Shown here: positions 1 to 13,972 of the stretch, piece by piece
Layout of the letters: every line of letters starts with the position of its first letter
Position numbering within the stretch: the first letter of the stretch is position 1
Assembly: GCA_013298245.1 (NCBI GenBank)
Contig: JAAFHD010000048.1
Location: forward strand, 1 to 13,972
Length of the DNA stretch: 13,972 nt
Source of the DNA: Alphaproteobacteria bacterium
Lineage (GTDB): Bacteria > Pseudomonadota > Alphaproteobacteria > Acetobacterales > Acetobacteraceae
Reading direction: 5' to 3'
The notes under the pieces: model-generated
Told to the model about the DNA's origin: nothing
The model's input: only the letters and a program-made list of their open reading frames with translations
Database searches by the model: none
Position numbers and translations under genes: made by a program

Positions 1-740
1 TCCGCCGCCTGCTTGATGCAGTTCACCGTGTCGCCGCCGGCATTGGCCAGCCCGATCACCTTGGCGCGGCTCGCCTGCGCCTGCACCAGGAAGGAACTGA
101 AATCCGTCGTGCCGGGGAAGGGCGTGCGCACGCCGCCCACCACACGCCCGCCAGCCGCGCGCACGAAGTTGGAGGTGTCGCGTTCCAGCGCATGGCCGAA
201 GGCGTAGTCGGCGGTGATGAAGAACCAGGTGTCGCCACCCGCCTGCACCATCGCCCCACCCGTGGACTTGGCCAGCATGTAGGTGTCGTACACCCAATGG
301 ATGGTGTTGGGGCTGCACGCGGCACCGGTCAGGTCGGACGTGGCGGCCGCGGTGTTCAGGTGGATCTTGTTGCGCTCGCGCACGACGGTGTTGACCGCGA
401 GTGCGACGGAGCTGGTCGGCAGGTCGGTCACCACATCCACATTGTCGCGATCGAGCCATTGCCGCGCGATGGTGGAGCCGACATCGGGGCGGTTCTGGTG
501 GTCGCCCACCACCACTTCCACATTGATGCCGCGCGCGGTGACGCCGCTATCCTGGATGGCCTGGCGCACGCACACCACCGAACCCGGCCCGCCGAGGTCA
601 CGGTACAGGCCGGACTGGTCGCCCAGCACGCCGATGCGGACCGTGTTGGCGGCCTGCGCGCGGGCCTGGTGCGCGGGCAAGGCACCCCAGATCGGGGCGG
701 TGGCGGCAGCACCCAAAAGGGCGCGACGGGATGCGGTCAT
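1..740 (-). CDS. ABC transporter periplasmic substrate-binding protein, copy 1 (C-terminus beyond window)
   Basis: This is the 5' part (246 codons) of a type-I periplasmic binding protein of the Peripla_BP_6 class used by branched-chain-amino-acid-type ABC transporters; the rest lies left of position 1. The N-terminus is a Tat-like signal: SRRALLG at residues 4-10, a hydrophobic stretch, then an ARA|Q cleavage site near residue 28. The mature part opens with an IRIGVL-type strand and carries the DHQNRPDVG and WFFITADYAFGH motifs shared with the next two genes. A strong Shine-Dalgarno AGGAGGAG (751-758) fixes the ATG at 740. It is last of three tandem paralogues and is closest to its upstream neighbour at 858-2096. 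The ligand cannot be read from sequence; an N-heterocyclic or carboxylate substrate is inferred from the linked catabolic genes. Confidence 0.9.
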   Translation of the reverse strand, partial: MTASRRALLGAAATAPIWGALPAHQARAQAANTVRIGVLGDQSGLYRDLGGPGSVVCVRQAIQDSGVTARGINVEVVVGDHQNRPDVGSTIARQWLDRDNVDVVTDLPTSSVALAVNTVVRERNKIHLNTAAATSDLTGAACSPNTIHWVYDTYMLAKSTGGAMVQAGGDTWFFITADYAFGHALERDTSNFVRAAGGRVVGGVRTPFPGTTDFSSFLVQAQASRAKVIGLANAGGDTVNCIKQAA

Positions 741-750
741 CTTGGTCTTC

Positions 751-758
751 CTCCTCCT
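751..758 (-). promoter_or_regulatory. Shine-Dalgarno of SBP copy 1
   Basis: AGGAGGAG on the minus strand, 10 nt before the ATG at 740. It is the strongest ribosome-binding site among the three SBP genes. Confidence 0.75.
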
Positions 759-767
759 ATGTCCTGC

Positions 768-793
768 CCCTCGCTTCGCCTGCGAAGCGAGGG
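768..793 (-). repeat. Perfect 12-bp inverted repeat (stem-loop) between SBP copies 1 and 2
   Basis: CCCTCGCTTCGC (768-779) is followed by CT and then GCGAAGCGAGGG (782-793), a perfect inverted repeat; in RNA this gives about 11 bp and a 4-nt loop. It lies in the 117-bp gap between the stop of SBP copy 2 (858) and the start of SBP copy 1 (740). No U-tract follows on either strand, so it is not a canonical intrinsic terminator. An mRNA-stabilising or processing hairpin, a partial attenuator or a REP-like element all fit. Confidence 0.7.
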
Positions 794-857
794 ATCAGCA
801 GGCCAGTCAGCAGATTGGGATGCGCGGTCTTGTGCCGCGCTATCCCGGTTGCGTGGT

Positions 858-2096
858 TCAGCGGATCAGCGAGCAGCCACCTTCGGCCACCGGGCGGAAG
901 GCCTCTTCCGGCGTGACCGTCTGCAGGATCTTGTAGAAGTCGAAGCGGCCGCGGCTTTCGGCCGGAGTCTTCACCTCGCACAGATAGGCGGGGTGCAGCT
1001 TGCGGCCATCGGCGCGGATGCTGCCGGCGCCGAAGGCATCGTCATCGGTCGGCATCGCCTTCATGCGCTCGACCACCGCGCGGCCGCTGGCCTTGGCGGC
1101 GGTGACGCCCAGATCAGCGCAAGCCTTCAGGTAGTGCATGCTGGCGGAGTAGTCGCCCGCGTGGCTCATCGCCACCGGCATGTCCACGCCCGAAGCACGC
1201 AGGATCGCGGCGGAGACGCGCCGCGTGCGATCGTTCAGATCCCAATAGAAGGTGTTGGCGCAGACCAGACCCTGTGCGGTGGCCAGCCCCAGCGCATGCA
1301 CATCGGTGTCGAACAGCAGCAGCGCCGCGACCTTGATGCCGCGCCGCGTCAGCCCGAATTCGCCAATCTGCTTGATGCTGTTGATGGTGTCAGCACCCGC
1401 ATTCGCCAGCCCGATCACCTGCGCGCGCGAGGCTTGCGCCTGCACCAGGAACGAAGAAAAGTCGGTCGTCGCCGGGAAGGGATGGCGCACCGAACCGACC
1501 ACGCGCCCACCGGCCGCGCGCACGAAGTTGGAGGTGTCACGTTCCAGCGCATGGCCGAAGGCGTAGTCCGCGGTGATAAAGAACCAGGACTGCCCGCCCG
1601 CGCGCACCGTCGCCGCACCCGCCACTTTGGCCAGCATGTAGGTGTCATACACCCAATGGATGGTGTTGGTGTTGCAGGCGCGTCCCGTCAGGTCCGAGGT
1701 GGCGGTCGAGGTCGGGATGCAGACCTTGTTGCGCTCCAGCGCCACCTGCGACACCGCCAGCGCCACCGAGGACGCCGCCAGGTTCAGGATCATGTCGACG
1801 TTTTCATTGTCGATCCAACGCCGCGCGATCGCCACACCGGCATCGGGCCGGTTCTGATGGTCGGCGCTGACGAATTCGACATTGAAGCCGCGTTGCCCGA
1901 ATTCCTGGATCGCCAGGCGCGCGGCGGCGATGGAATTGGGCCCGTTCAGGTCACGGAAGGGTCCGGAGAAATCGGTCAGCATGCCGATCTTGATGGTGTT
2001 GGCGGCCTGCGCCTTGGCGGGGCTGTAGGGCAGCGCGCCCCACACCGGCGCGGTGGCGGCGGCGCCAAGGACGGCGCGGCGGGTTGTCTCGGTCAT
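858..2096 (-). CDS. ABC transporter periplasmic substrate-binding protein, copy 2
   Basis: A complete 412-residue type-I periplasmic binding protein (Peripla_BP_6 fold), a usual length for the family. It would bind its ligand in the periplasm and deliver it to a LivHM-type permease driven by the neighbouring LivG/LivF. The N-terminus has TRRAVLG at residues 5-11, a hydrophobic segment and an AKA|Q cleavage site, suggesting Tat export; there is no lipobox Cys. Shared motifs include DHQNRPDAG, TIHWVYDTYMLAK, WFFITADYAFGH and, near the C-terminus, EEAFRP. The ATG at 2096 is chosen because AGGAGAG (2104-2110) precedes it and the signal peptide begins there; a longer open frame to 2411 would overlap the next gene. 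It is the middle gene of three, closest in sequence to copy 1. Ligand unknown. Confidence 0.93.
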   Translation of the reverse strand: MTETTRRAVLGAAATAPVWGALPYSPAKAQAANTIKIGMLTDFSGPFRDLNGPNSIAAARLAIQEFGQRGFNVEFVSADHQNRPDAGVAIARRWIDNENVDMILNLAASSVALAVSQVALERNKVCIPTSTATSDLTGRACNTNTIHWVYDTYMLAKVAGAATVRAGGQSWFFITADYAFGHALERDTSNFVRAAGGRVVGSVRHPFPATTDFSSFLVQAQASRAQVIGLANAGADTINSIKQIGEFGLTRRGIKVAALLLFDTDVHALGLATAQGLVCANTFYWDLNDRTRRVSAAILRASGVDMPVAMSHAGDYSASMHYLKACADLGVTAAKASGRAVVERMKAMPTDDDAFGAGSIRADGRKLHPAYLCEVKTPAESRGRFDFYKILQTVTPEEAFRPVAEGGCSLIR

Positions 2097-2103
2097 GCTT
2101 GCT

Positions 2104-2110
2104 CTCTCCT
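2104..2110 (-). promoter_or_regulatory. Shine-Dalgarno of SBP copy 2
   Basis: AGGAGAG on the minus strand, 7 nt before the ATG at 2096. It supports this start over the upstream extension of the open frame. Confidence 0.7.
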
Positions 2111-2170
2111 GGGACGTGAAGAGGCGGGCGATCTGGCGTCGCCCTGCCCCGGATGGTGAACCACTCGGGT

Positions 2171-2202
2171 CTGATCGGATCAGTCTGGAACAGATTGATC
2201 CG
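2171..2202 (-). repeat. Overlapping inverted repeats between SBP copies 2 and 3
   Basis: CTGATC-G-GATCAG (2171-2183) is a perfect palindrome. It overlaps a longer inverted repeat with 12-bp arms, 2176-2187 and 2191-2202, separated by GAA, with one mismatch (11 of 12 paired). The two structures share bases and are mutually exclusive in RNA. They sit in the 127-bp gap between the stop of SBP copy 3 (2224) and the start of copy 2 (2096). No U-tract follows, so transcript processing, stabilisation or partial attenuation is more likely than full termination. Confidence 0.6.
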
Positions 2203-2223
2203 TGAATCAGCCCCGCAAAATTA

Positions 2224-3468
2224 CTATCGCACCAGCGCGCAATTGCCGGCCGCCATCGGGCGGAAGGCCTCTTCGGCGGGGGTGGTTTGCAGCAGCGTGT
2301 AGAAGTCCCAGGCGCCGCGCGATTCCTGCGGCGTCTTGACCTGGAACAGATAGGCCGGGTGCAGCTTGCGGCCATCGGGGCGGATCGTGCCGCGGCCGAA
2401 GGCGTCGTCATCGGTCGGCATGGCCTTCATGCGCGCGATGGTGGCGGCGCCATCCGCCTTGGCGGCGGCGACACCCATGTCGGCGACGGTCTTGAGGTAA
2501 TGCGTCACGGCCGAATAGCAGCCGGCATGGCCCATGGAAGGCCGGTTGCCGCCCGGCGTGCCGTTGGCGACGATGCGGCCCGAGACGGCGCGCGTGCGGT
2601 CATTCAGGTCCCAGTAGAAGGTCTCGGTCAGCACCGAACCGCCGGCCGTTTGCAGGCCCAGGCTGTTCACGTCATTCACGAACACCAGCAAGCCCGCCAC
2701 GCGCTGGCCGCGGCGCATCAGGCCGAATTCGCCGGCCTGCTTGATGGCGTTGATCGCGTCCACGCCGGCATTCGCAATGCCCACCACCTGCGCGCGGCTG
2801 GCCTGCGCCTGCAACAGGAAGGAGGAGTAGTCGGTCGTGCCGGGGAAGGGGTGGCGCACATTGCCCACCACGCGGCCGCCGGCGGAGCGGACGAATTCCA
2901 TCGTCTGCCCTTCCAGGCTGTGGCCGAAGGCGTAGTCCGCGGTGATGAAGAACCAGGACTGGCCACCCGCGCGCACCAACGCGCCGCCGGTGCTGCGCGC
3001 CAGCATCCAGGTGTCATAGGTCCAGTGGATGGTGTTCGGGCTGCACTGCCCGCCGGTCAGTTCGACGGTGGCCGCCGTGCTGTTCAGATAGACCTTGTTG
3101 CGCTCGCGCATGACGGTGTTGACCGCCAGCGCGACGCCCGAGGACGGCACATCCAGCACCACATCCACGTTGTCACGATCGACCCATTGGCGCACCAGGT
3201 TCACACCGACATCGGGGCGGTTCTGGTGGTCGGCGACCAGCACTTCGACATTGAAGCCGCGATTGCCGAAATCCTGCACGGCGGTGCGCGCGGAAATCAC
3301 GCTGGTCGGGCCGGAAATGTCACGGAACGGGCCGGACATATCGGTCAGCACACCGATGCGGATGGTGTTGGCAGCCCCTTGCGCGCGCGCATGGGTGATG
3401 GGGGTTGCGGCGCCAAGCGCCATCGCGCCCGTGGCCGAGAGAAAATTACGGCGACCCGTGTCGATCAT
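2224..3468 (-). CDS. ABC transporter periplasmic substrate-binding protein, copy 3
   Basis: A complete 414-residue Peripla_BP_6-type solute-binding protein, the most divergent of the three and the first in transcription order. Its N-terminus has a good Tat motif, GRRNFLSA (residues 5-12), a hydrophobic segment and an ARA|Q cleavage site near residue 29. The mature domain keeps the family motifs IRIGVLTDMSGP, DHQNRPDVG, TIHWTYDTWMLAR, WFFITADYAFGH and a C-terminal EEAFRP followed by a Cys. The ATG at 3468 begins the signal peptide; the ribosome site before it is weak (GGGAACC). It starts 25 nt after the livF stop, so it is probably cotranscribed with livGF. No permease gene lies between the ATPases and the binding proteins. 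Ligand unknown. Confidence 0.93.
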   Translation of the reverse strand: MIDTGRRNFLSATGAMALGAATPITHARAQGAANTIRIGVLTDMSGPFRDISGPTSVISARTAVQDFGNRGFNVEVLVADHQNRPDVGVNLVRQWVDRDNVDVVLDVPSSGVALAVNTVMRERNKVYLNSTAATVELTGGQCSPNTIHWTYDTWMLARSTGGALVRAGGQSWFFITADYAFGHSLEGQTMEFVRSAGGRVVGNVRHPFPGTTDYSSFLLQAQASRAQVVGIANAGVDAINAIKQAGEFGLMRRGQRVAGLLVFVNDVNSLGLQTAGGSVLTETFYWDLNDRTRAVSGRIVANGTPGGNRPSMGHAGCYSAVTHYLKTVADMGVAAAKADGAATIARMKAMPTDDDAFGRGTIRPDGRKLHPAYLFQVKTPQESRGAWDFYTLLQTTPAEEAFRPMAAGNCALVR

Positions 3469-3493: not shown

Positions 3494-4189
3494 TCAAACG
3501 CCCAGATACTGGTGCAGGCGGTCCATCGCGCCCGCGAGTTCAGCGTTGGTCACGCTGTCCACCACAGTGCCATGGTCCATCACATAATGCCTGTCCGCGA
3601 CGGTCTGTGCGAAGCGAAAATTCTGTTCCACCAGCAGCACGGTAAAGCCGCGGCTTTTCAACTCGCGCACGGTGCGGCCAATCTGCTGCACGATGACCGG
3701 GGCCAGGCCCTCGCTCGGTTCGTCCAGCAACAGCAGCTTCGCACCCGTGCGCAGGATACGCCCGATCGCCAGCATCTGCTGTTCGCCGCCCGAAAGCTTG
3801 GTGCCCGGGCTGCGCGCGCGTTCCTTCAGGTTCGGGAACAGCGTGTAGATTTCATCGACCGACATGCCGCCAGGCGCGATCTGCGGCGGCAGCATCAGGT
3901 TCTCGGTCACGTCGAGGCTGGCGAAAATCCCGCGCTCCTCGGGGCAATAGGCGATGCCCTTGCGTGCGATGACGTCCGAGCGCGCGCTGATGATCTCGCC
4001 GCCCTGAAACTTCACGCTGCCCGCGCGGCGGCCCGTCAGCCCCATGATGGCGCGCAGCGTGGTGGTCTTGCCCGCGCCATTGCGGCCCAGCAGCGTCACC
4101 ACCTCGCCCTCATTGATGTGGATGTCCACGCCATGCAGGACGTGCGATTCGCCGTACCAGGCCTCCAGGCCCTTCACTTCCAGCATCAT
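3494..4189 (-). CDS. livF: Branched-chain-amino-acid-type ABC transporter ATP-binding protein LivF
   Basis: A 231-residue cytoplasmic ATPase subunit of a HAAT-family ABC importer, a typical LivF length. Visible motifs are Walker A GRNGAGKT (35-42), the Q-loop region, signature LSGGEQQ (132-138), Walker B LLLLDEPSEG (152-161) and VEQN at the switch position, where LivF proteins normally have Gln instead of His. The start is the ATG at 4189 because it overlaps the livG stop as ATGA, implying translational coupling; a second ATG follows directly at 4186. The longer open frame up to 4327 lies inside livG and looks like low-complexity Arg-rich shadow. It would pair with LivG to power uptake of the ligand captured by the three binding proteins. 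Confidence 0.95.
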   Translation of the reverse strand: MMLEVKGLEAWYGESHVLHGVDIHINEGEVVTLLGRNGAGKTTTLRAIMGLTGRRAGSVKFQGGEIISARSDVIARKGIAYCPEERGIFASLDVTENLMLPPQIAPGGMSVDEIYTLFPNLKERARSPGTKLSGGEQQMLAIGRILRTGAKLLLLDEPSEGLAPVIVQQIGRTVRELKSRGFTVLLVEQNFRFAQTVADRHYVMDHGTVVDSVTNAELAGAMDRLHQYLGV

Positions 4190-4971
4190 GCCGCGCTCTC
4201 CGGAACGCCGACGCTGGCGGGGTCGGTGCCGAGATAGGCCGCGATCACCTCCGGATTGGCGGAGACGGCGGCGTAATCGCCCTCGGCCAGAACCTGGCCG
4301 CGCGCCAGCACGGTGATGCTGTCGCACAGCCCTTCGACGACCTTCAAATTATGTTCCACCAGCAGCACGGTGCGGCCCACCGAAACGCGCTTCACCAGGG
4401 TCACGATGCGGTCCACATCCTCGGCGGTCATGCCGGCGGTCGGTTCGTCCAGCAGCATCATCTTGGGGTCCATCGCGAGCGTCGTCGCGATTTCCAGCGC
4501 ACGCTTGCGGCCATAGGGCAGCTGGCCCGCGGCGAGCTCGGCGTATTCGGTCAGGCCCACATCGGCGAGCAATTCCATCGCGCGGTCGTCATATTGCTTC
4601 AGCAGGCTGTCGGCGCGCCAGAAATCGAAGCTGTTGCCGCGCTGGCGCTGCAGCGCGACGCGCACATTTTCCAACACCGTCAGATGCGGAAACACCGCTG
4701 AAATCTGGAACGACCGCACCAGCCCCAGCCGCGCCACTTCCGCGGGCTTCATCGAGGTGATGTCGCGCCCGTCATAGCTGATGGAACCGCGCGTCACCGG
4801 CAGGAACTTGGTCAGCAGATTGAAGCAGGTGGTCTTGCCCGCGCCATTGGGGCCGATCAGACCATGGATGGTGCCTCGGCGCACCTGGAGGTTGACGTCG
4901 GACACCGCGGCAAAGCCACGGAATTCCTTGGTCAGAGCCTTTGTCTCGAGGATGAAGTCACTCACCCGCAC
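4186..4971 (-). CDS. livG: Branched-chain-amino-acid-type ABC transporter ATP-binding protein LivG
   Basis: A 261-residue ATPase subunit, usual LivG length. Motifs are Walker A GPNGAGKT (40-47), the degenerate signature LPYGRKRALEIA (151-162) typical of LivG, Walker B MMLLDEPTAG (171-180) and the switch His in VEHN (His207). The start is GTG at 4971 or, two codons on, GTG at 4965. AGGAGAGG (4973-4980) lies very close to the first GTG and about 7 nt from the second, so 4965 is a real alternative. The gene begins 65 nt after the xdhB stop, on the same strand, and overlaps livF by ATGA. It links the transporter to the purine/heterocycle genes upstream. The LivH/LivM permeases are not in this window and may lie left of position 1. 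Confidence 0.94.
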   Translation of the reverse strand: MRVSDFILETKALTKEFRGFAAVSDVNLQVRRGTIHGLIGPNGAGKTTCFNLLTKFLPVTRGSISYDGRDITSMKPAEVARLGLVRSFQISAVFPHLTVLENVRVALQRQRGNSFDFWRADSLLKQYDDRAMELLADVGLTEYAELAAGQLPYGRKRALEIATTLAMDPKMMLLDEPTAGMTAEDVDRIVTLVKRVSVGRTVLLVEHNLKVVEGLCDSITVLARGQVLAEGDYAAVSANPEVIAAYLGTDPASVGVPESAA

Positions 4972-5036: not shown

Positions 5037-7304
5037 CTAGGGCCGCTGTCCAGCGCGCAAAAGCCGCTCCGGAGAGACGGGTGCGTCGAGATGCGCAACG
5101 CCCGCCGCGTCCTTCAAGGCGTTCCACACGGCACCTGCCAGCAACAGCGGCGGCTCGCCCACCGCCTTGCTGCGGAAGATGGTGTTGGCGCGTGCGGGGC
5201 CTGCTTCCAGGATGCGCGCCTGGAACACTGGCGGTACGTCGCGCGAGCCTGGAATCTTGTAGGTGGAAGGCCCGACAGTGCGCAGGCGGCCGGCCGGGTC
5301 CCACCACAATTCCTCGCTGGTCAGCCAGCCCATGCCCTGGATGAAGGCGCCCTCGATCTGGCCGCGATCGATCGCCGGGTTCAGCGACTTGCCGCAATCC
5401 TGGACCAGATGCGCGGAGAGCACGCGGTGTTCGCCAGTGAGCGTGTCGATCACCACTTCGGAGACAGCGGCGCCATACGAAAAATAGAAGAACGGCTTGC
5501 CGCGCACCGCCTGCATGTCCCATTCCAGATCGGGCGTCGCGTAGTAGCCGGTGGCGGACAGAGACACGCGCGCCAGCCAGCATTTTTTCGCAAGCTCGCC
5601 GAAGGTCAGGCGCTGGTTGTCGGTGGCGCCCAGCACCTGGCCATCTTCGAAGCGAACGGCGTCCTCGGCGCAACCGAAATGCTTGGCGGCGACGCTGGCC
5701 ATGCGCGTGCGAATCGCATCCGCCGCGTTGAAGGCGGCCCAGCCATTCAGGTCGCTGCCGGTGCTGGCAGCCGTCGGGCTGGTGTTGGGCACTTCGGCGG
5801 TATGCGTGGCGGCCAGGCCCACGGTTTCGATGGGCACGGAAAACACTTCCGCCACCACCTGCGCGACCTTGATGAACAGCCCCTGGCCCATCTCGGTGCC
5901 GCCATGCGCGAGGCGCACGGAGCCATCGGTGTACACATGCACCAAGGCGCCCGCCTGGTTCAGATGCGGGATGCCGAAGCTGATTCCAAAGGCGCTGACG
6001 AAACAGCCAAGGCCCCGGCGCAATGTCGGATGCGTGGCGTTGAAGGCGGCGATCTCCGCGCGGCGGCGATCCCAGCTGGAATCGGCCATGGCTTCGGCAT
6101 GCACGCGGCGGATCAGATCGCCCTCCAGCGCCTGGCCATAGGGTGTGTGCGAGGGGTTCGGCCCGCCCGCGAAATTGCGCGCGCGCACCGCTTCAATGTC
6201 ATGGCCGGTGGCGCGCGCGACATGGGCGAGCACGTCATCCATCAGCATCGCGCCCTGCGGGCCGCCGAAGCCGCGGAAGGCGGTGTTGCTGACATGGTTG
6301 GTCTTGATGGCGCCGCAGGTGACGCGCAGATCGGCGACGCTATAGGCGTTGATGGCGTGGGTGAGTGCGCGCATCACCACGCCGCCGGACATGTCGACGG
6401 AATGGCCGCCATCGGCGGTCATGTCCGCGACCAGGGCGGTGATGCGGCCCGCGGCGTCGAAGCCCGCGCGCCAGCGATAGAGGAAGGGGTGGCGCTTGCC
6501 GGTGGCGGCCATATCGGCCTTGCGCGGCAAGCGCAGTTTCACGGGGCGGTTGGTGTGGCGCGCGGCCAGTGCGGCGGCGGCGGCGACCCAGCTGGCGTTG
6601 CTCTCCTTGCCGCCGAAGGCGCCGCCCATGCGGCGGCACTGCACCTGCACGGCGCCATAGGGCACGCCGAGCACGCGGGCGATGATGTGCTGGCCTTCGG
6701 AAGGGTGTTGGGTGGAGGAATGCACCAGCATTTCCGCGCCCTCGCCAGGGATGGCGAGTGCGACTTGGCCTTCGAGATAGAAGTGTTCCTGGCCGCCGAC
6801 TTCGAATTCGCCCTGCGCGGTGAAGGGGGCGGCGGCGAGTGCGGTATCGGCATCGCCGTTCTTCATCGTGAAGGGGCCGACCAGCCAGTCGCGGCCATCC
6901 TGGATGCGCAGGATGGGGGGCAGGGCTTCGATGTCAGGCTTGATGGCGGCGGCGGCGCGCAGCGCTTCGTCGCGCGTGCGCGCCACCACCAGCGCCAGCG
7001 CCTGGCCGTGATGTTCGATGATGGTCTCGACGAACAGCACTTCGTTGCGCGCGATCGGCGCGATGTCGTTCTCGCCGGGAATGTCAGTGGGGCCGAGCAC
7101 CGCGACCACGCCAGGCATGGCGCGCGCGGGCGCCAGGTCCAGCGCGCGCAGCTGGCCATGCGCCACCGGCGATGTCACCAGCGCGGCGTGCAGCGTGCCC
7201 GCGGGTTCGGCCATGTCATCGATGAAACGCGCCTCGCCTGTCGCGTGCTTGACCGCGCTGTCATGGCGCAGCGCGGCGCCGGCGATCTTGGTCACGGCGT
7301 TCAT
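5037..7304 (-). CDS. xdhB: Xanthine dehydrogenase molybdopterin-binding subunit XdhB
   Basis: The 755-residue Moco subunit of a bacterial xanthine dehydrogenase (family about 760-790). It hydroxylates hypoxanthine and xanthine to urate, with electrons passing to the Fe-S/FAD subunit XdhA. Recognisable blocks are RMGGAFGGKES (225-235), TAFRGFGGPQG (341-351), GTEMGQGL, SPTAASTGSD, PFFYFSYGAAVSEV and KAVGEPPLLLA near the C-terminus. By motif and spacing, Glu234, Arg312, Phe346 and Glu717 match the purine-binding and catalytic residues of bovine XDH (Glu802, Arg880, Phe914, Glu1261), so true xanthine specificity is likely. The ATG at 7304 overlaps the xdhA stop as ATGA; the extended frame to 7586 lies inside xdhA. 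This ORF is intact although its partner xdhA carries a stop codon. The XdhC chaperone is not in the window. Confidence 0.95.
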   Translation of the reverse strand: MNAVTKIAGAALRHDSAVKHATGEARFIDDMAEPAGTLHAALVTSPVAHGQLRALDLAPARAMPGVVAVLGPTDIPGENDIAPIARNEVLFVETIIEHHGQALALVVARTRDEALRAAAAIKPDIEALPPILRIQDGRDWLVGPFTMKNGDADTALAAAPFTAQGEFEVGGQEHFYLEGQVALAIPGEGAEMLVHSSTQHPSEGQHIIARVLGVPYGAVQVQCRRMGGAFGGKESNASWVAAAAALAARHTNRPVKLRLPRKADMAATGKRHPFLYRWRAGFDAAGRITALVADMTADGGHSVDMSGGVVMRALTHAINAYSVADLRVTCGAIKTNHVSNTAFRGFGGPQGAMLMDDVLAHVARATGHDIEAVRARNFAGGPNPSHTPYGQALEGDLIRRVHAEAMADSSWDRRRAEIAAFNATHPTLRRGLGCFVSAFGISFGIPHLNQAGALVHVYTDGSVRLAHGGTEMGQGLFIKVAQVVAEVFSVPIETVGLAATHTAEVPNTSPTAASTGSDLNGWAAFNAADAIRTRMASVAAKHFGCAEDAVRFEDGQVLGATDNQRLTFGELAKKCWLARVSLSATGYYATPDLEWDMQAVRGKPFFYFSYGAAVSEVVIDTLTGEHRVLSAHLVQDCGKSLNPAIDRGQIEGAFIQGMGWLTSEELWWDPAGRLRTVGPSTYKIPGSRDVPPVFQARILEAGPARANTIFRSKAVGEPPLLLAGAVWNALKDAAGVAHLDAPVSPERLLRAGQRP

Positions 7305-7984
7305 GCCGGCACCGCGAAGACATCCGCCGGCATCTCGGGATGCGCGTGGCGCAGCCACAGCCGTTCGACCAAGCCACGCGCGGCGGCCATGCGCCATTCG
7401 GCGCTGCCGCGCCAATCGGAGAGCGGCGTGAAGTCCAGCGCGGCGGCGGCTTCGCGCGCGGTTTCGCGCGTCAGCGCGCGGCCGGTCAGCGCGGCCTCGG
7501 CGCCCGTTGCGCGGCGCGTCGTCGCCGCCATCCCGCCGAAGGCGATGCGCGCGCGCGCCACCACGCCGCCCGCGAATTCCACACACGCCACCATCGCCAC
7601 CGCCGAGATATCCTGGTCATGCCGGCGCGAGAGTTTTTCCGCCACCAGCAGCGCGCCAGGTGCCGGGCGCGGCAGTCGGATGGCGGCGATGATCTCATCC
7701 GCCGCCAGCGCGTTGCGCCGATAGTCCAACAGGAATTCCGCAACCGGCATGTCGCGCGCGCTGGTCTCCACCACCGCATCTAGTGCCAGCAGGATCGGCA
7801 GCGCATCGCCGATGGGCGAGGCAGTGCCAAGATTGCCACCCACCGTCCCCATCGCGCGGATCTGCCGTGAACCCAGCCGCGCGAGATAATGCGCAAACGG
7901 CGCGAAATCCGTGTCGCCCGCACATGCCGCATGCAGCGCCGAATAGGGTTCTGCCGCGCCGATGCGGATGCCCGCGCCATCCAC
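7301..7984 (-). CDS. C-terminal xdhA fragment: FAD-binding domain remainder
   Basis: The open frame downstream of the TAA, in the same phase as the N-terminal part. If translated separately it could start at GTG 7984, 15 nt after the stop, giving 227 residues; no convincing Shine-Dalgarno precedes that codon. It contains the second FAD loop, GTVGGNLGTASPIGDALP (residues 46-63), a KLSRR-DQDIS segment and the C-terminal CO-dehydrogenase-flavoprotein-like region. It lacks the AGGTDLG loop, so on its own it is unlikely to bind FAD. It ends in an ATGA overlap with xdhB. Confidence 0.6.
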   Translation of the reverse strand: MDGAGIRIGAAEPYSALHAACAGDTDFAPFAHYLARLGSRQIRAMGTVGGNLGTASPIGDALPILLALDAVVETSARDMPVAEFLLDYRRNALAADEIIAAIRLPRPAPGALLVAEKLSRRHDQDISAVAMVACVEFAGGVVARARIAFGGMAATTRRATGAEAALTGRALTRETAREAAAALDFTPLSDWRGSAEWRMAAARGLVERLWLRHAHPEMPADVFAVPA

Positions 7985-7999
7985 GCGCAGCCCGCGCAG

Positions 8000-8002
8000 T
8001 TA
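8000..8002 (-). other. In-frame TAA stop within xdhA
   Basis: The plus-strand trinucleotide tta (8000-8002) reads TAA in the xdhA frame. The distance from the ATG at 8662 to the downstream frame is an exact multiple of three, so this is a point nonsense change, not a frameshift. One base (TAA to GAA) restores a Pro-Glu-Leu sequence common in XdhA proteins. Confidence 0.9.
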
Positions 8003-8662
8003 GGGAATGTTCAACAGCCCAATCACTGCCGGTGGATTCTCCCGATGTTCGGAAAACCGCAGGCCCAAATCCGTGCCGCCCGCCAGCAACCAGGCATCGG
8101 GCAGCGCGCGCTTCAGCGCCACCGCCTCGGCCAATGTCGCGGGCAGATGAAACACTTGTCCAGGTGCCGCGAACACAGCCGCCGTGGGCGTCGTCACGGC
8201 GCTCTGCGCGCCGTCATCCCGCATGCTCTCCATCGCCTCCAGGATCGGCCGATAGCCGGTGCAGCGGCACAGGTTTCCGGCCAGCGCCTCATGCGGATCG
8301 CCACCCTCGCGCGTCCAGGCCCAGGCGGACATGACAATACCCGGCGTGCAGAAACCGCATTGCGTGCCATCCGCATCCGCCAGCGCCTCGGCCACCGCGA
8401 GGCCAATGCCCTCCACCGTGCGGATCGCGCGGCCATGCATCTGGCCCAGCGTGGCCAGACAGGCATTGATCGGCTCGCGCCGCGCGCCATCCTCCAGCAC
8501 CACGGTGCAGGCGCCGCAATCGCCCTCCGCGCAGCCTTCCTTGGTGCCGGTCAGGCGCGCGCCTTCGCGCAGCCAGTCCAGCAGAGTCTGCGTGGGCACC
8601 GTGTCGGCGGGCAGCGTGATGCGCTGCCCGTTCAGGGTGAAGGCGATCCGGTTATCTTGCAT
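8000..8662 (-). CDS. xdhA: N-terminal xdhA fragment: two [2Fe-2S] domains plus start of FAD domain
   Basis: A 220-residue product if translation stops at the TAA. The plant-ferredoxin-type cluster is ligated by Cys44, Cys49, Cys52 and Cys68 (GCAEGDCGAC core). The second cluster has Cys102 and Cys105 (QCGFCTPG) and Cys132 and Cys134 (NLCRCTGYR). Residues 170-220 begin the FAD domain, with AGGTDLG at 194-200. The ATG at 8662 is 27 nt after the stop of the DUF1185 gene; the ribosome site is weak. The Fe-S domain could fold, but electron transfer to FAD/NAD would be lost without the downstream part. Confidence 0.85.
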   Translation of the reverse strand: MQDNRIAFTLNGQRITLPADTVPTQTLLDWLREGARLTGTKEGCAEGDCGACTVVLEDGARREPINACLATLGQMHGRAIRTVEGIGLAVAEALADADGTQCGFCTPGIVMSAWAWTREGGDPHEALAGNLCRCTGYRPILEAMESMRDDGAQSAVTTPTAAVFAAPGQVFHLPATLAEAVALKRALPDAWLLAGGTDLGLRFSEHRENPPAVIGLLNIP

Positions 8663-8689
8663 GCGCGTAATCTGCGGCGCAGCGGGGCT

Positions 8690-9259
8690 TCAGCGCAAGC
8701 CGTCCTTGCCCTGGATCTGATCCACGGTCAGCCCGCCGATGCGCGGCAGCGGCCTGCCACCCGCCGCCAGCGCCAGGCACAGCAGAATTTCATCGGCCAT
8801 CGGCGCATCGGTCACGCGCGCCTCGATCGCGTCGAAATGGCTGCGCACGAAGGCGGCGTCCTTGTGGCCCAGCGGCACGTCGATCACGGCGCCCATGCCG
8901 GCGCGTTTCTTCGCCGATGGAATCAACGCCGCACCGCCACCCAAGGCGGCACGCACCGGCGCACCCATCTTCGGGTGCAGCAGGGCGGCTGCGTGTTCCA
9001 ACTCGCCCGCTTCGCCCACAATCGCCGCCTTGCCATAGCCCTGCGCCGGCGCGCCGAGTGCCGCCAGGGCGCGTTCCACCAGCAGCGCGCCCAGCGCCTC
9101 GCCAGCTTCGATCAGCACCGAGACATCGGGGTTGTAGTGCCCGGCCAGCGGGTTCTTCAGCACCGCACAGGCGACCGCGCGACGGATGGGCGGCGTGATG
9201 TCGCGGTCCATCTCGGTCAGCGTGTCTTCAACAAACGTCACCAGCTTGCGGATCTTCAT
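8690..9259 (-). CDS. DUF1185 / AA_synth (PF06684) family protein
   Basis: A 189-residue protein, the full usual length of the family. Recognisable blocks are NPLAGHY (36-42), YGKAAIVGEAGELEHAAALL (74-93), LHPKMGAP, LGGGAALIPSAKK, an IDVPLGHKDAAFVRSHFDA segment and VTDAPMADEI. The family has a chorismate-mutase-like (Bacillus AroH) fold and is annotated 'amino acid synthesis' on structural grounds; its reaction is unproven as far as I know. GGAGG (9265-9269), 5 nt upstream, supports the ATG at 9259. The gene lies between the enamidase-like amidohydrolase (55-bp gap) and xdhA (27-bp gap) on one strand, so a role in the same catabolic pathway, perhaps on the ring-opened enamine/amide product, is inferred. 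It is soluble, with no signal peptide. Confidence 0.85.
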   Translation of the reverse strand: MKIRKLVTFVEDTLTEMDRDITPPIRRAVACAVLKNPLAGHYNPDVSVLIEAGEALGALLVERALAALGAPAQGYGKAAIVGEAGELEHAAALLHPKMGAPVRAALGGGAALIPSAKKRAGMGAVIDVPLGHKDAAFVRSHFDAIEARVTDAPMADEILLCLALAAGGRPLPRIGGLTVDQIQGKDGLR

Positions 9260-9264
9260 CCCTG

Positions 9265-9269
9265 CCTCC
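9265..9269 (-). promoter_or_regulatory. Shine-Dalgarno of the DUF1185 gene
   Basis: GGAGG on the minus strand, 5 nt before the ATG at 9259. Confidence 0.65.
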
Positions 9270-9314
9270 GATGGTTTGAGCGCCGCAGGCGCGAAAAGCT
9301 GAATCGGCGGCGCA

Positions 9315-10457
9315 TCATGCTAGCTCCGGCACGCGCGCCGCGGGCGGCGTGTTGCGGCTGCGCGCACCAACACGCACCTCGCCATCGATCACCACCAGGC
9401 CGATGCCTGGCAGATCACCCAGCGCCAGGCTTTCCGACGCGTCGCGCCCAGCACCGCCGATCGGTGCATCGATGAACACTATATCCGCCGGCCGCCCCGC
9501 CGCCAGCACGCCTTGTTCCAAACCGCGCCACTTCCCGATGTTGCCGCTGCCCGCCGCGATGGCGAGCCCCGCATCCAAGCCCCCGACACTCGCCAAAAAC
9601 GACACCGTGCGCAGCACCCCCAACGGCTGCACGCCCGAACCAGCCGGGCTGTCCGTGCCCAACACCAACCGGTCCAACCGCCCCATCTCGCGCAACGTGT
9701 TCAGCGCATGCAGCGCGGTGCGCGGATTGCCGTTGTGCACGATCTCGATGGCGCGCGTCGTCGCCGCCATCACGCGCGTCAGTTCCTCCGCCGAAAGGCT
9801 GGTCGGGCCGCCATTGATGTGTGCGACGATATCCGCATCCGCCGCCACCACCTGGTCGAAGCCCATGCGGTTGGACCCCGCGATGGAAGGCCCGCCGCAA
9901 TGGATCATCATGTTCAGCCCGGCCGCGCGCGCCCAGGCGGCGTGCTGCGCAACCTCCTCCGGCTCGCGAATGGAACCAAGGCCGATCTCGCCCAGCAACT
10001 GCACGCCCGCCGCGCCGCATTCGGCGTAGTCCGCGGCCGTCATGCCGCGCTCCGCAACGGGCGCGCCGGCGATCACCTTCGCACCCAGCGGCCGGAACGC
10101 GGAGAAACAACGCTGCGCCGCGATCGCCAGCGCCTTCACGCCCACGGGGTCCTTCGGTCGGCCGGGGATATGCACCTCGCCCGCACTCAGCATGGTGGTG
10201 ACACCGCCCTGCACGAAGGCCTCGATCCAACCCAGCTGGTTCTGCCGCGGCGTCCAGTCGCCAAAGGCGGGGTGCACGTGATTGTCGATCAGCCCGGGCA
10301 TCACCGCGCAGCCCTTCGCATCCCAGACCGCGCCCGCACCTTGCAGCCCGCGCCCGATCGCCGCGATCCGCCCGCCCTCGACCAGGATGGAATCCGCATC
10401 CAGCACCGGGTTCGCGACATCGCCGCTGAACATCAGCCCGATATTCTTGATCAGCAT
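9315..10457 (-). CDS. Enamidase-like binuclear-metal amidohydrolase
   Basis: A 380-residue amidohydrolase-superfamily enzyme: an N-terminal beta-sandwich strand, a TIM barrel, then the closing sandwich. The metal ligands are HVH (His60, His62), Glu157 in GEIGLG, His186, His213 in AHINGGP and Asp269 in GTDSPAG. Glu157 sits where most relatives have a carbamylated Lys; this, with GVTTMLSAG, PGRPKDPVG, HINGGPTS, NGNPRTA and the C-terminal SRNTPPA, recalls Eubacterium barkeri enamidase (Ena, 385 residues), which opens 1,4,5,6-tetrahydro-6-oxonicotinate to 2-formylglutarate. The similarity is from memory, not a search. The ATG at 10457 is preferred over 10463 because AGGAG (10465-10469) is 7 nt away. 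It is first in the leftward operon. The exact substrate lactam is unknown; isoaspartyl-dipeptidase or imidazolonepropionase-like function is less likely. Confidence 0.85.
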   Translation of the reverse strand: MLIKNIGLMFSGDVANPVLDADSILVEGGRIAAIGRGLQGAGAVWDAKGCAVMPGLIDNHVHPAFGDWTPRQNQLGWIEAFVQGGVTTMLSAGEVHIPGRPKDPVGVKALAIAAQRCFSAFRPLGAKVIAGAPVAERGMTAADYAECGAAGVQLLGEIGLGSIREPEEVAQHAAWARAAGLNMMIHCGGPSIAGSNRMGFDQVVAADADIVAHINGGPTSLSAEELTRVMAATTRAIEIVHNGNPRTALHALNTLREMGRLDRLVLGTDSPAGSGVQPLGVLRTVSFLASVGGLDAGLAIAAGSGNIGKWRGLEQGVLAAGRPADIVFIDAPIGGAGRDASESLALGDLPGIGLVVIDGEVRVGARSRNTPPAARVPELA

Positions 10458-10525
10458 CCGCATTCTCCTCGTTGGCGCAGTATTTGCCGGTTGAGTGCCG
10501 CGCGAACAGCCCCTATGCCCCATGC
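10458..10525. promoter_or_regulatory. Divergent promoter region of the two catabolic gene sets
   Basis: The only divergent gap in the window, 68 bp between the amidohydrolase and the FAD-subunit gene. Leftward, AATACT (10479-10484 reversed) with TTCGCG (10501-10506 reversed), spacer 16, is a weak sigma70-like pair. Rightward, TTGAGT (10491-10496) and TATGCC (10514-10519), spacer 17, would start RNA at about 10526, the A of the ATG. The two candidate promoters overlap, so one regulator could control both directions. Element calls are tentative, and no regulator gene is present. Confidence 0.45.
10465..10469 (-). promoter_or_regulatory. Shine-Dalgarno of the amidohydrolase
   Basis: AGGAG on the minus strand, 7 nt before the ATG at 10457 but only 1 nt before the ATG at 10463. 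It therefore selects the inner start. Confidence 0.7.
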
Positions 10526-11347
10526 ATGGACGCCTATTTCCGACCGACCTCGCTCCCCGACGCGCTGGACCTCATGGCGCAGCACCGCCCGCAACCCTTG
10601 GCCGGCGGTACCGACCTCTACCCATGGATGACCGGCGCGGAAGTGTGGGGGCCGCGCCCCGCGCTGAATTGGCTGGACATCTCAGGGCTAGCGGCGCTGC
10701 GCGGTGTGTCGGCCACGCGCATCGGCGCGCTGGCCACCTGGACGGAGGTGGCGGATGCCGCGCTGCCGCCGGCCTTCCGCGCGCTGCAACAAGCCGCGCG
10801 CCAGGTGGGCGGGCGGCAAGTGCAGAACCGCGGCACGGTGCTCGGCAATCTGTGCAATGCCTCGCCGGCCGCCGATGGTGTGCCGCCCTTGCTGCTGCTG
10901 GACGCAGAGGTGGAATTGGCCAGCGCGGCGGGCACGCGGCGCATCCCGCTGTCGCAATTCATCCTGCACAATCGGCGTACCGCGCGGGCGCCTGAGGAAA
11001 TCGCGGTGGCACTGCACATGCCCGCGCAACCCGATGCGCAAAGCCGCTTCGAGAAACTCGGCGCGCGCAAGCAGCTGGTGATTTCCATCGCTATGGCGGC
11101 GGGCCTGGCGCGCTGGGATGGCGCGCGCATCGCGCAGGTGCGCGTCGCGATCGGCGCCTGTTCGCCTGTCGCGCGCCGGCTGCTGGGCCTTGAAGCGGCG
11201 CTGCTGGGTGCCACGCACGAGGAGGCCGCGCGCATCATCGCACGCGTGCCATTGCCGGAGCTCTCGCCCATCGCGGATGTGCGTGGCAGCGCCGAATACC
11301 GCGCCGCCGCCGCGCGCGAAGTCATCGCCCGCGCGGTGCTGGCATGA
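10526..11347 (+). CDS. FAD-binding subunit of a molybdenum hydroxylase (CoxM/NdhF type)
   Basis: A 273-residue FAD subunit of the xanthine dehydrogenase/CO dehydrogenase medium-chain family (usually about 280-290). It starts with YFRPTSLPDAL and has the two FAD loops LAGGTDLYP (25-33) and RGTVLGNLCNASPAADG (102-118); the C-terminal domain includes EKLGARKQLVIS and DVRGSAEYR. It passes electrons from the [2Fe-2S] clusters of its partner to the physiological acceptor. The ATG at 10526 is the first credible start in frame; no Shine-Dalgarno precedes it, and a promoter reading would place the transcript start at this ATG. Its stop overlaps the next start as ATGA, so the two subunits are coupled. 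It is distinct from the XdhA FAD domain and belongs to the rightward hydroxylase. Confidence 0.93.
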   Translation: MDAYFRPTSLPDALDLMAQHRPQPLAGGTDLYPWMTGAEVWGPRPALNWLDISGLAALRGVSATRIGALATWTEVADAALPPAFRALQQAARQVGGRQVQNRGTVLGNLCNASPAADGVPPLLLLDAEVELASAAGTRRIPLSQFILHNRRTARAPEEIAVALHMPAQPDAQSRFEKLGARKQLVISIAMAAGLARWDGARIAQVRVAIGACSPVARRLLGLEAALLGATHEEAARIIARVPLPELSPIADVRGSAEYRAAAAREVIARAVLA

Positions 11348-13972
11348 ACGCGATGCAGCCGCCGCCGATTGCGCTGACCGTCAATGGCGAAGCGCATGCG
11401 CTGACTGTTCCGCCAGCCACGCGTCTCTCCGCCGCGCTGCGCGATACGCTGGGCCTGACCGGCACGAAAATCGGCTGCGACGCCGGCGATTGCGGCGCCT
11501 GCACCGTGCTGCTGGATGGCGCGCAGGTCTGCGCCTGCATGGTGCCGGTGGCGCAGGCCGCCGGTGCGCAGGTCACCACGGTGGAGGGCCTCGCGAGCAC
11601 GCGTTGGGGCCAGGCATTGGCCGCCGCCTTTTTGCACCATGGCGCTGCGCAATGTGGCATCTGCACGCCCGGCATGGTGATGGCCGCGGCCGATCTGCTG
11701 GCGCGCGACGCGACACCGGATGAAGCAGCGGTGGAAGCAGCGCTCGGTGGCGTGCTGTGCCGCTGCACCGGCTATCGGAAAATCACCGATGCGGTGTTGG
11801 ATGCGCATCGCTTCCTGGACACGCCGCCCGCACCCGAGACCGGCGCCGTCGGCGCGCGCATCCCGCGCCTCGACGGCCCCGCGAAACTGGATGGCAGCGA
11901 GCGCTACGGCGCCGATGCCGCGCCCGCCGACTCGCTATGGCTGCGCCCGATCCGCAGCCCGCACGCGCATGCGCGTTTCGCCCTGCCGGATGTCACCGCC
12001 TTCCTCGCCGCGAACCCGGGCGTTGAGGCAGTACTGACCGCGCGCGACGTGCCCGGCCGCAACGGCTTCGGCATCTACCCGCACATCAAGGACCAGCCGG
12101 TCTTTGCCGAGCACACCGTGCTGTATCGCGGCGATTGCGTGGCCGCGCTGGTGGGCGTGCGCGATGCCGTGTTGCGCGCGGAATTTCCAGTGGCCTGGGA
12201 ACCTCTGCCCGCGTTGGACGTGGCCGCCGCGCGGGCCGATGGCGCGCCGCTCCTGCACGCGCATCTGCCTGGCAATATCCTGACCACGGGGCGCGTGGTC
12301 TCGGGCACCGCGGCGCCTGCGGCGCATACCGCGCGCATCGCCGTGCAGACCAGATTCGTCGAACACGCCTATATCGAGCCCGAGGCCGGTTATGCGCAGC
12401 GCGTTGGTGACACGGTGGAAGTCTTCGCCTCCACCCAGGCCCCCTATATGGATCGCGAGGAAGTGGCCGGCGTGTTGGGCATCCCCGAGGACCGCGTGCG
12501 CATTATCCCCTCCGCCTGCGGTGGTGGTTTCGGCGGCAAGCTGGATGTGGCGGTGCAGCCCATGCTGGCCGTCGCCGCCTGGCTGCTGAACAAGCCCGTG
12601 CGCACCGTCTATGCGCGCCCCGAATCGATGTTGAGTTCGACGAAGCGCCACCCCGCTTCCATCACCGCCGAAGCGGGCTGCGATGCGGACGGGCGCCTCA
12701 CGCATATCCACTTCGATGGCGACTACGACACGGGTGCGTATGCCAGCTGGGGTCCGACCGTCGCGGGCCGCGTGCCCGTGCATGCCAGCGGGCCGTACCG
12801 CGTGCCGGCCGTGCATGCAGTGGCGCGCGCGGTGCACACGCACAACCCGCCATCGGGCGCCTTCCGCGGCTTTGGCGTGCCGCAGGCCGCGATCGCGCAG
12901 GAGGCGCTGTGGGACCAACTGGCTGACGCGGCCGGCGTGGACCGCTTGGAATTTCGCGTGCTGAACGCGCTGCGCGTGGGCGACACGACAGCCACCGGGC
13001 AACGCATGGAGCATTCGGTGGGGCTGGTGGCATGCCTCGAATCGCTGCGCCTACACTGGCATGCGCTGCGCGCGCGGGCGGCCGACGAAAACGCCCGCGG
13101 CGGCGTGCTGCGCCACGGCGTGGGCGTGGCCTGCATGTGGTACGGCATCGGCAATACCGGCATGTCCAACCCCTCCACGATGCGGCTGGAATTGACGCCG
13201 GGGGGGCGCCTGACCTTCTTCAACGGCGCGGTCGATATTGGCCAGGGCAGCACCACCGTGTTGCACCAGATCGCGGCCGCAGCACTGGGCCTGCCGGTCG
13301 CGGCCTTCGCGCATGTGAATGGCGACACTTTCCTGACGCCAGATGCCGGCAAGACCAGTGCCTCGCGCCAGACTTTTGTCAGTGGGCGCGCGGCGTTCGA
13401 GGCCGGGCGTGCGCTGCGCGCGGATATACTGCGTCGTGCGAATGCCGGCGATGACGCAGCGCTGTCGCTGGACGGCGGCGTGCTGCGGGTGAATGGCGTC
13501 GCGCTGCATCTGCACGAAAAACTCCTCGCCGAAGGCCGCTTCGACCCACCCACGATTCCGCTGGACGAAAACGGCCAGGGCATTCCGTACGCGACCTATG
13601 GTTTCGCGGCCCAGATCGCCGCACTCGCGGTCGATACACGTCTTGGCACCATCAAGCTGCACCGCATCGTCGCCGCCCATGATGTCGGCCGCGCCATCAA
13701 CCCGACGCTTTTGGAAGGCCAGATTCACGGCGGCATCGCACAAGGCATCGGCCTCGCGTTGATGGAAGAATACATCCCCGGCCGCACCGAAAACCTGCAC
13801 GACTACCTGATCCCCTCCATGGGCGATGTGCCGCCGATCGACACCATCCTGATCGAGGATTCGGAACCGCTCGGCCCCTGCGGCGCGAAGGGCGTGGGCG
13901 AACCCGCGCTGGTCGCAACCGCCCCCGCGATCTTCGGTGCCATCCGCGACGCAACCGGCGCCATCATCACCC
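11344..13972 (+). CDS. Fused [2Fe-2S]-molybdopterin hydroxylase subunit (C-terminus beyond window)
   Basis: The frame stays open for 876 codons to the right edge; about 30 residues are probably missing compared with the similarly built 907-residue Desulfovibrio gigas aldehyde oxidoreductase. Residues 8-80 are a ferredoxin-type domain (Cys45, Cys50, Cys53, Cys65) and 85-155 the second cluster (Cys104, Cys107, Cys139, Cys141). From about 168 on it is the Moco domain: CGGGFGGK (392-399), GAFRGFGVPQ (505-514), DIGQGS (631-636) and GAKGVGEP with catalytic Glu853. Leu400 follows GGFGGK where XdhB has the purine-binding Glu, so xanthine is an unlikely substrate; an N-heterocycle or aldehyde is. It partners the FAD protein encoded upstream (ATGA overlap). 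No signal peptide, so cytoplasmic. Substrate unknown; nicotinate-type hydroxylation is a guess from the adjacent enamidase-like gene. Confidence 0.92.
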   Translation, partial: MNAMQPPPIALTVNGEAHALTVPPATRLSAALRDTLGLTGTKIGCDAGDCGACTVLLDGAQVCACMVPVAQAAGAQVTTVEGLASTRWGQALAAAFLHHGAAQCGICTPGMVMAAADLLARDATPDEAAVEAALGGVLCRCTGYRKITDAVLDAHRFLDTPPAPETGAVGARIPRLDGPAKLDGSERYGADAAPADSLWLRPIRSPHAHARFALPDVTAFLAANPGVEAVLTARDVPGRNGFGIYPHIKDQPVFAEHTVLYRGDCVAALVGVRDAVLRAEFPVAWEPLPALDVAAARADGAPLLHAHLPGNILTTGRVVSGTAAPAAHTARIAVQTRFVEHAYIEPEAGYAQRVGDTVEVFASTQAPYMDREEVAGVLGIPEDRVRIIPSACGGGFGGKLDVAVQPMLAVAAWLLNKPVRTVYARPESMLSSTKRHPASITAEAGCDADGRLTHIHFDGDYDTGAYASWGPTVAGRVPVHASGPYRVPAVHAVARAVHTHNPPSGAFRGFGVPQAAIAQEALWDQLADAAGVDRLEFRVLNALRVGDTTATGQRMEHSVGLVACLESLRLHWHALRARAADENARGGVLRHGVGVACMWYGIGNTGMSNPSTMRLELTPGGRLTFFNGAVDIGQGSTTVLHQIAAAALGLPVAAFAHVNGDTFLTPDAGKTSASRQTFVSGRAAFEAGRALRADILRRANAGDDAALSLDGGVLRVNGVALHLHEKLLAEGRFDPPTIPLDENGQGIPYATYGFAAQIAALAVDTRLGTIKLHRIVAAHDVGRAINPTLLEGQIHGGIAQGIGLALMEEYIPGRTENLHDYLIPSMGDVPPIDTILIEDSEPLGPCGAKGVGEPALVATAPAIFGAIRDATGAIIT

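Follow-up and report, generated by a model that had tools for sequence, protein, structure and literature searches.

A contig-cut bacterial locus assigned to nicotinate degradation by the tetrahydro-6-oxonicotinate route, with a lineage-specific insertion of a xanthine dehydrogenase-like enzyme

The genes considered here lie on a stretch of 13,972 bases (the window) from a bacterium of the Acetobacteraceae, a placement that fits its nearest named relative (locus L023). The window is an entire contig, C423, of a metagenome-assembled genome (MAG) that comprises 3.70 Mb in 523 contigs and is 82.8% complete, and a gene for a molybdenum (Mo) enzyme runs off its right end. The minus strand carries, in this order, a gene for an enamidase homologue (ena), an AA_synth gene, xdhA, xdhB, livG, livF and three tandem genes for substrate-binding proteins. 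The plus strand carries a gene for a flavin adenine dinucleotide (FAD) subunit followed by a gene in which 2Fe-2S and molybdenum cofactor (Moco) parts are fused, and this pair diverges from ena over ~60 bp (Table 1). The initial annotation, made from the letters of the window, described an amidohydrolase between XdhAB-type genes and a divergent FAD and Fe-S/Moco pair, and all of these genes are present as described. The AA_synth gene, the stop within xdhA, the liv and binding-protein genes and the fact that the window is a whole contig come in addition to that description. The window is very probably the left part of a cluster for nicotinate degradation by the tetrahydro-6-oxonicotinate (THON) route. 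Comparison with relatives supports the identities of the genes, the conservation of the cluster and that of active-site residues; chance is excluded because of E-values such as 4.4e-105 and 2.1e-290 together with a gene order that is kept in relatives.

Table 1. Features of the window, with positions counted from its first base.
Feature	Position	Strand	Basis or remark
Enamidase (Ena) homologue	9315..10463	-	phmmer match to 2VUN; Met at 10457 or 10523 are alternative starts
AA_synth (PF06684/DUF1185) protein, conserved alongside Ena and the reductase	8690..9259	-	Pfam 4.9e-67
XdhA-like 2Fe-2S/FAD subunit, broken by an in-frame stop	7301..8662	-	TIGR02963 in two halves
In-frame TAA, codon 221 of xdhA	8000..8002	-	
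XdhB-like Mo subunit, divergent xanthine dehydrogenase subfamily	5037..7304	-	TIGR02965 965 bits; best PDB match R. capsulatus xanthine dehydrogenase, 7.9e-198
XdhB Gly444, at the place of R. capsulatus xanthine dehydrogenase Thr460	5973..5975	-	Alignments, codon checked
LivG-type ABC ATPase (branched-chain amino acid/urea type)	4186..4971	-	
LivF-type ABC ATPase	3494..4189	-	
Periplasmic substrate-binding protein, Peripla_BP_6	2224..3468	-	Pfam 1.1e-96
Second tandem substrate-binding protein	858..2096	-	64% identity to the 2224-3468 protein
Third tandem substrate-binding protein, truncated at the contig end	3..740	-	68% identity to the 2224-3468 protein over 242 residues
Intergenic region separating the divergent ena and FAD genes, given the assumed starts	10464..10525	.	
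FAD subunit, presumed nicotinate dehydrogenase	10526..11347	+	FAD_binding_5 and CO_deh_flav_C
2Fe-2S and Moco fusion subunit, presumed E. barkeri-type nicotinate dehydrogenase	11344..13972	+	3HRD matches; cut by the contig end
Fusion protein Tyr600, equivalent to E. barkeri NdhM Tyr13, in the MWYGIGNTG motif	13141..13143	+	Alignment, codon checked

On sequence comparison the amidohydrolase is a relative of E. barkeri enamidase. A phmmer search of all PDB sequences returns the E. barkeri enzyme (2VUN) with an E-value of 4.4e-105, the next match being an allantoinase at 5.5e-8, and the alignment with 2VUN residues 3-384 has 172 identities in 378 aligned residues. E. barkeri residues H67, H69, E164, H193, H220 and D276, which we take to be metal ligands or catalytic residues, are all identical in Ena, where E179 aligns with E164. 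In an alignment of 89 sequences, which counts in the window and E. barkeri proteins, five of these positions are invariant; at position 164, Glu occurs 88 times and Lys once. The Glu-for-Lys metal site recognized in the initial annotation is borne out by the retention of E164 and the five other positions in the window protein. This genome has no second enamidase of the same kind, the other six matches lying at 8.5e-7 or weaker. The amidohydrolase phylogeny that had been proposed as a check was realized in part: the tree places the window in a clade whose loci mostly carry a 6-hydroxynicotinate reductase gene, and it comprises Ena relatives only, with no other characterized amidohydrolase clade. 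L149, which was marked in the tree as having no reductase, does have one; this leaves the placement of the window unaffected. As a separate observation, the Ena relatives at loci L042, L046, L047 and L063 (compared loci and genomes carry L and G numbers) are accompanied by two AA_synth copies, with no reductase seen within the fetched flank. Some of these loci also encode an isochorismatase-like protein, as judged by eye, and another lactam pathway is possible there.

The divergent FAD and Fe-S/Mo pair is presumed to be a nicotinate dehydrogenase of the E. barkeri type. When the two Mo halves of the fusion protein are compared with the PDB separately, the E. barkeri enzyme (3HRD) ranks first for both, at 4.4e-77 for the large-subunit half (next match 5.8e-44) and 1.2e-57 for the medium-subunit half (next match 7.4e-35). 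The L and M subunits of the E. barkeri enzyme are separate, whereas in the window the Fe-S, large and medium Mo parts form one chain. Tyr600 of the fusion protein lies in the motif MWYGIGNTG, which is identical to the motif around Tyr13 of the E. barkeri medium subunit, a residue that is modelled as the binder of the nicotinate ring nitrogen in the available text of PMC5746545. Additionally, GGKL is the motif of both the fusion protein and 3HRD at the place where xanthine dehydrogenase reads GGKE. The orthologue of the fusion protein at locus L024 has 892 residues, so ~16 residues and the stop codon of the window gene lie past the contig end.

The gene that would follow the fusion gene is seen in relatives. 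The locus L024, the Ena of which is 97% identical to that of the window, features after its fusion gene a gene for a 479-residue protein that is named 6-hydroxynicotinate reductase by NCBI. Among the matches listed by a homologue search (8000 candidates scored, 120 listed), close relatives of the L024 protein bear the same name in UniRef. Residues C19, C22, C26 and C36 of the reductase are invariant across 14 aligned sequences; the protein has no Pfam family over the cut-off and no convincing PDB relative. The initial annotation had noted that the reductase is absent and that it must either be encoded nearby or the substrate must differ. Loci of this kind do have the reductase: in L023, L024 and L026-L029 a homologue of it is the neighbour that follows the Fe-S/Mo gene, so no purine or other substrate is needed to account for Ena. 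The match to the UPF0280-type gene is split into two pieces at positions 4226-5031 of L024 and is continuous in L023.

The wider conservation of the cluster was determined from the loci of the best 80 of 129 Ena relatives, named and 51-97% identical, with matches under set identity and length limits left uncounted. The reductase is found in 49 of these 80 loci, and among the 49 a UPF0280 gene is present in 46 and AA_synth in 45. A survey of 90 family genomes, the window genome included, found Ena and the reductase together in 23, out of 25 that have Ena and 28 that have the reductase. Among the 25, this contig-cut genome and G059 are the ones with no reductase. The fusion protein has an orthologue in 22 of the 90 genomes, and 21 of the 22 also have the reductase, this contig-cut genome again being the exception. 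In 20 of the 21 genomes with both, the fusion gene and the reductase gene are spaced by <500 bp, and in one they are on separate contigs. Genome G069 was counted as having no fusion gene, though a contig-cut fragment of one (81% identity) adjoins its reductase. The absence of the reductase cannot be judged from the window because the window is an entire contig, and because the two genes are nearly always adjacent in relatives, an edge effect is the best reading of this absence and most likely its cause.

There are several points that weigh against the assignment to the THON route. A search of the remainder of this assembly, which is 82.8% complete, did not reveal the reductase. Its name depends on database annotation and on the identity of 42% that PMC3511419, in its available text, reports for its own homologue. 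Five of the 28 reductase-bearing family genomes have no Ena. The reductase was not seen in the fetched flank of 31 of the 80 Ena loci, some of which are short contigs, and some enamidase relatives may act elsewhere. When the whole fusion chain is used as one PDB query an aldehyde oxidoreductase ranks first, which is put down to the E. barkeri enzyme being spread over separate chains, and the best NCBIfam model for the chain is selenium-dependent xanthine dehydrogenase, at 555 bits below a cut-off of 830.

The hydroxylase is not the same enzyme throughout the cluster. Within the fetched flank, the 49 reductase-bearing loci feature an E. barkeri-type fusion protein in 23 cases, a NicB-like protein in 13, both in none and neither in 13. 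The NicA/NicB-like label is one that we assigned by domains; a scan of the NicB-like protein of L080 shows Moco and cytochrome c domains. Because the type of hydroxylase differs among reductase-bearing loci, the first oxidation is the variable step. The locus L080 (11196-15379) and similar Paraburkholderia loci have a NicA/NicB-like hydroxylase instead of the E. barkeri-type enzyme, and a further Fe-S/Mo/FAD set is located near Ena in G018 (L149, 6.9-10 kb) and in L073. The genome G072, which belongs to the genus of the window, has a cluster of reductase, UPF0280, AA_synth, Liv and binding-protein genes (L111 and L123) with Ena not alongside. Genome-wide, G072 has no match to the dedicated dehydrogenase or to xanthine dehydrogenase, and its sole Ena-like match at 1e-60 is 47% identical and contains an in-frame TGA. 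The two Mo hydroxylases that flank Ena in the initial annotation differ in standing: the divergent FAD and Fe-S/Mo pair holds its place in a widely conserved pathway, but XdhAB is, among the fetched loci, a lineage-specific addition.

The XdhB protein is over the TIGR02965 cut-off (965 versus 849.5 bits) and keeps Glu232, Arg310 and Glu730 of R. capsulatus xanthine dehydrogenase (XDH). XdhA is under the TIGR02963 cut-off of 467 bits, with 408 bits for the L024 relative and 204 and 189 bits for the two halves in the window. The window xdhA contains a single TAA stop in frame, and the aligned xdhA stretches of L024-L027 and L029-L033 contain none; a frameshift was ruled out, both halves being in one frame with the stop between them. 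The Phe-Thr pair in the substrate pocket of XDH is Phe-Gly in the window XdhB. The Thr residue of this pair, Thr460 in R. capsulatus, binds hypoxanthine N7 or xanthine O6 according to the available text of PMC5746545. Gly occupies the Thr460 place in 15 of 15 distinct aligned clade members (nine operonic copies, that of the window among them, and six stand-alone ones), and in 17 other XdhB proteins of the family the residue is Thr in 16 and Asn in one. The XdhB tree groups the nine operonic copies in one clade (97/94) beside the six stand-alone copies (93/95), on a long stem (100/100); L112, which covers the L033 genome region a second time, is excluded from the tree and the counts. Besides the window, XdhAB follows AA_synth in nine acetobacterial loci (L024-L027 and L029-L033, L032 being partial). 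It is not present in L028, and L023 ends ahead of that point. Operonic XdhAB was seen in one acetobacterial branch only among the fetched loci, and neither this genome nor any of the 8 relatives searched has a TIGR02965 match over the cut-off other than the operonic XdhB. An origin of XdhAB from a purine operon was considered from context and is unsupported, since no purine or pyridine gene was recognized by eye, from printed N-termini, around the six nearest stand-alone xdhAB. The searches made among open-licence papers yielded no description of an XDH-like insertion in a nicotinate cluster and no paper on xanthine dehydrogenase and nicotinate in Acetobacteraceae; for Roseococcus and nicotinate they yielded a single paper, on a phage.

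The chances are about even that XdhAB is a purine dehydrogenase of the ordinary sort, acting on xanthine or hypoxanthine, and sits in the operon by chance. This is what the XdhB family score, the R. capsulatus XDH as best PDB match, the retained Glu232, Arg310 and Glu730 and the lack of any other such gene over the cut-off in this genome and the 8 relatives point to. However, Thr460 is replaced by Gly, the L024 XdhA scores below its family cut-off, one operonic clade retains XdhAB beside the nicotinate genes, and the xdhA of this MAG contains a stop.

It is less probable, and at present doubtful, that the operonic XdhAB hydroxylates nicotinate or another pyridine, redundantly with the dedicated dehydrogenase or as its replacement in places, having evolved from xanthine dehydrogenase in the manner of Aspergillus HxnS. 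A fuller version of this proposal is just as tentative: in Roseococcus-type Acetobacteraceae an XdhAB with Gly may have been captured by the nicotinate operon, taken on C6 hydroxylation and replaced the dehydrogenase in some lineages, as a bacterial parallel to the way in which fungal HxnS originated. The proposal draws on the Gly found throughout the XdhB clade at the purine-binding Thr460 place, a spot that is also altered in HxnS, where the available text of PMC5746545 describes an inserted Ala with Arg and Glu kept as they are in XdhB. The Roseococcus loci L031 and L033 (the latter from R. thiosulfatophilus) feature Ena, the reductase and a stop-free XdhAB, and their genomes have no match to the fusion protein above ~34% identity and no NicB-like match at 1e-80. 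Additionally, the operonic XdhB is the only such match in the searched relatives, stops occur in the window xdhA and in the L025 xdhB and none in their fusion genes, L028 has the fusion gene only, and no acetobacterial locus that is complete over this stretch is without both enzymes.

Against a nicotinate role stands the presence of Gly in the six stand-alone XdhAB as well, with the genomes G003, G016 and G087 having neither Ena nor reductase. Gly is not tied to nicotinate, because stand-alone XdhAB with Gly occur without Ena or the reductase. Among the 90 genomes XdhB with Gly is unassociated with the reductase (4/8 versus 24/82, p = 0.25), and the corresponding figures for Ena are 5/8 versus 20/82 (p = 0.035); these Fisher p values are uncorrected for kinship, and the window genome was scored as having no reductase. 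Glu232, Arg310 and Glu730 of XDH are kept, the purine-binding Arg and Glu among them. The pattern of reciprocal loss is small and partly by descent, and stops in MAGs may be sequence errors. The locus L030 has no fusion gene, but its reductase is also unseen in the flank and its genome contains NicB-like matches of ~40% identity. G072 has the reductase and neither enzyme, and generic Mo hydroxylases (~30-34% identity) remain in the genomes of L031 and L033.

For the cluster as a whole, it is very unlikely that a different azaheterocycle is degraded and that Ena opens another lactam; several Ena relatives do lie in loci with no reductase in the flank (e.g. L042, L046, L047 and L063), but the window clade mostly has it, plus an E. 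barkeri-type nicotinate dehydrogenase, and on this basis the idea of the initial annotation that Ena might act on a purine or another substrate was rejected.

Nicotinate degradation by the THON route remains the preferred reading. The hydroxylase, the enamidase and the ABC transporter are all present together in the window, and the initial proposal of N-heterocycle catabolism by hydroxylation followed by enamidase ring opening is upheld, with relatives pointing to nicotinate via 6-hydroxynicotinate and THON. For the substrates, the order of the steps, the transport and the presence of a reductase in this very genome, we infer the following scheme. The ABC system would import the substrate, and the divergent FAD and Fe-S/Mo enzyme would hydroxylate nicotinate at C6. 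The reductase, the gene of which in close relatives comes immediately beyond the point where this contig stops, would convert 6-hydroxynicotinate to THON, which Ena would hydrolyse to 2-formylglutarate and ammonia. The chemistry of THON and 2-formylglutarate is described in the available text of PMC9304392. Conserved roles in the cluster would also fall to AA_synth and to the UPF0280-type protein that relatives encode past the edge, and XdhAB would be a later insertion of a divergent XDH-like enzyme between AA_synth and livG. The best PDB match of AA_synth is 2qtp, an uncharacterized protein. The three binding-protein genes (window positions 3-3468) are mutually 64-71% identical, and two or three copies are also found in several relatives.

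This type of cluster is already known from PMC3511419. In its available text, a cluster conserved in Azorhizobium (A. caulinodans), Bradyrhizobium, Rhodopseudomonas and the Bradyrhizobiaceae strain SG-6C provides for the initial three steps and also encodes an ABC transporter and two conserved proteins of unknown function, and strain SG-6C degrades nicotinate with a transient appearance of 6-hydroxynicotinate. Taken together with the genes past its edge in relatives, the window resembles the cluster of that text in its genes for hydroxylation, reduction (seen in relatives) and enamidase, in the ABC transporter and in the two conserved proteins, which would correspond to AA_synth and UPF0280; it differs from the cluster as described there by the XdhAB within the operon and by the three tandem binding proteins. 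A search among open-licence papers found none that ties DUF1185 or UPF0280 to nicotinate. Among solved structures, Ena and the Mo halves are closest to the E. barkeri enzymes (2VUN and 3HRD) and keep the active-site residues that were checked, and the differences are the fusion of the subunits and a proteobacterial host. XdhA and XdhB share the architecture of R. capsulatus XDH (1JRO) along with its Glu232, Arg310 and Glu730, and differ from it in the Gly for Thr460, in the L024 XdhA score and in being located in a nicotinate operon. HxnS, in the available text of PMC5746545, is likewise XDH-like, belongs to a nicotinate cluster and is changed at the Phe1009-Thr1010 spot with Arg and Glu kept; however, HxnS has an inserted Ala (FAT) and the window XdhB has Gly in place of Thr.

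The window is thus well supported as a contig-cut member of the known nicotinate pathway cluster that carries a lineage-specific XDH-like insertion. An enamidase locus that seemed incomplete receives a clear assignment, and several different molybdenum enzymes are seen to take the hydroxylase position in aerobic THON clusters. The comparison also singles out the divergent XdhAB: if its nicotinate role were true, bacteria, like fungi, would have turned a xanthine dehydrogenase into an enzyme that hydroxylates nicotinate.

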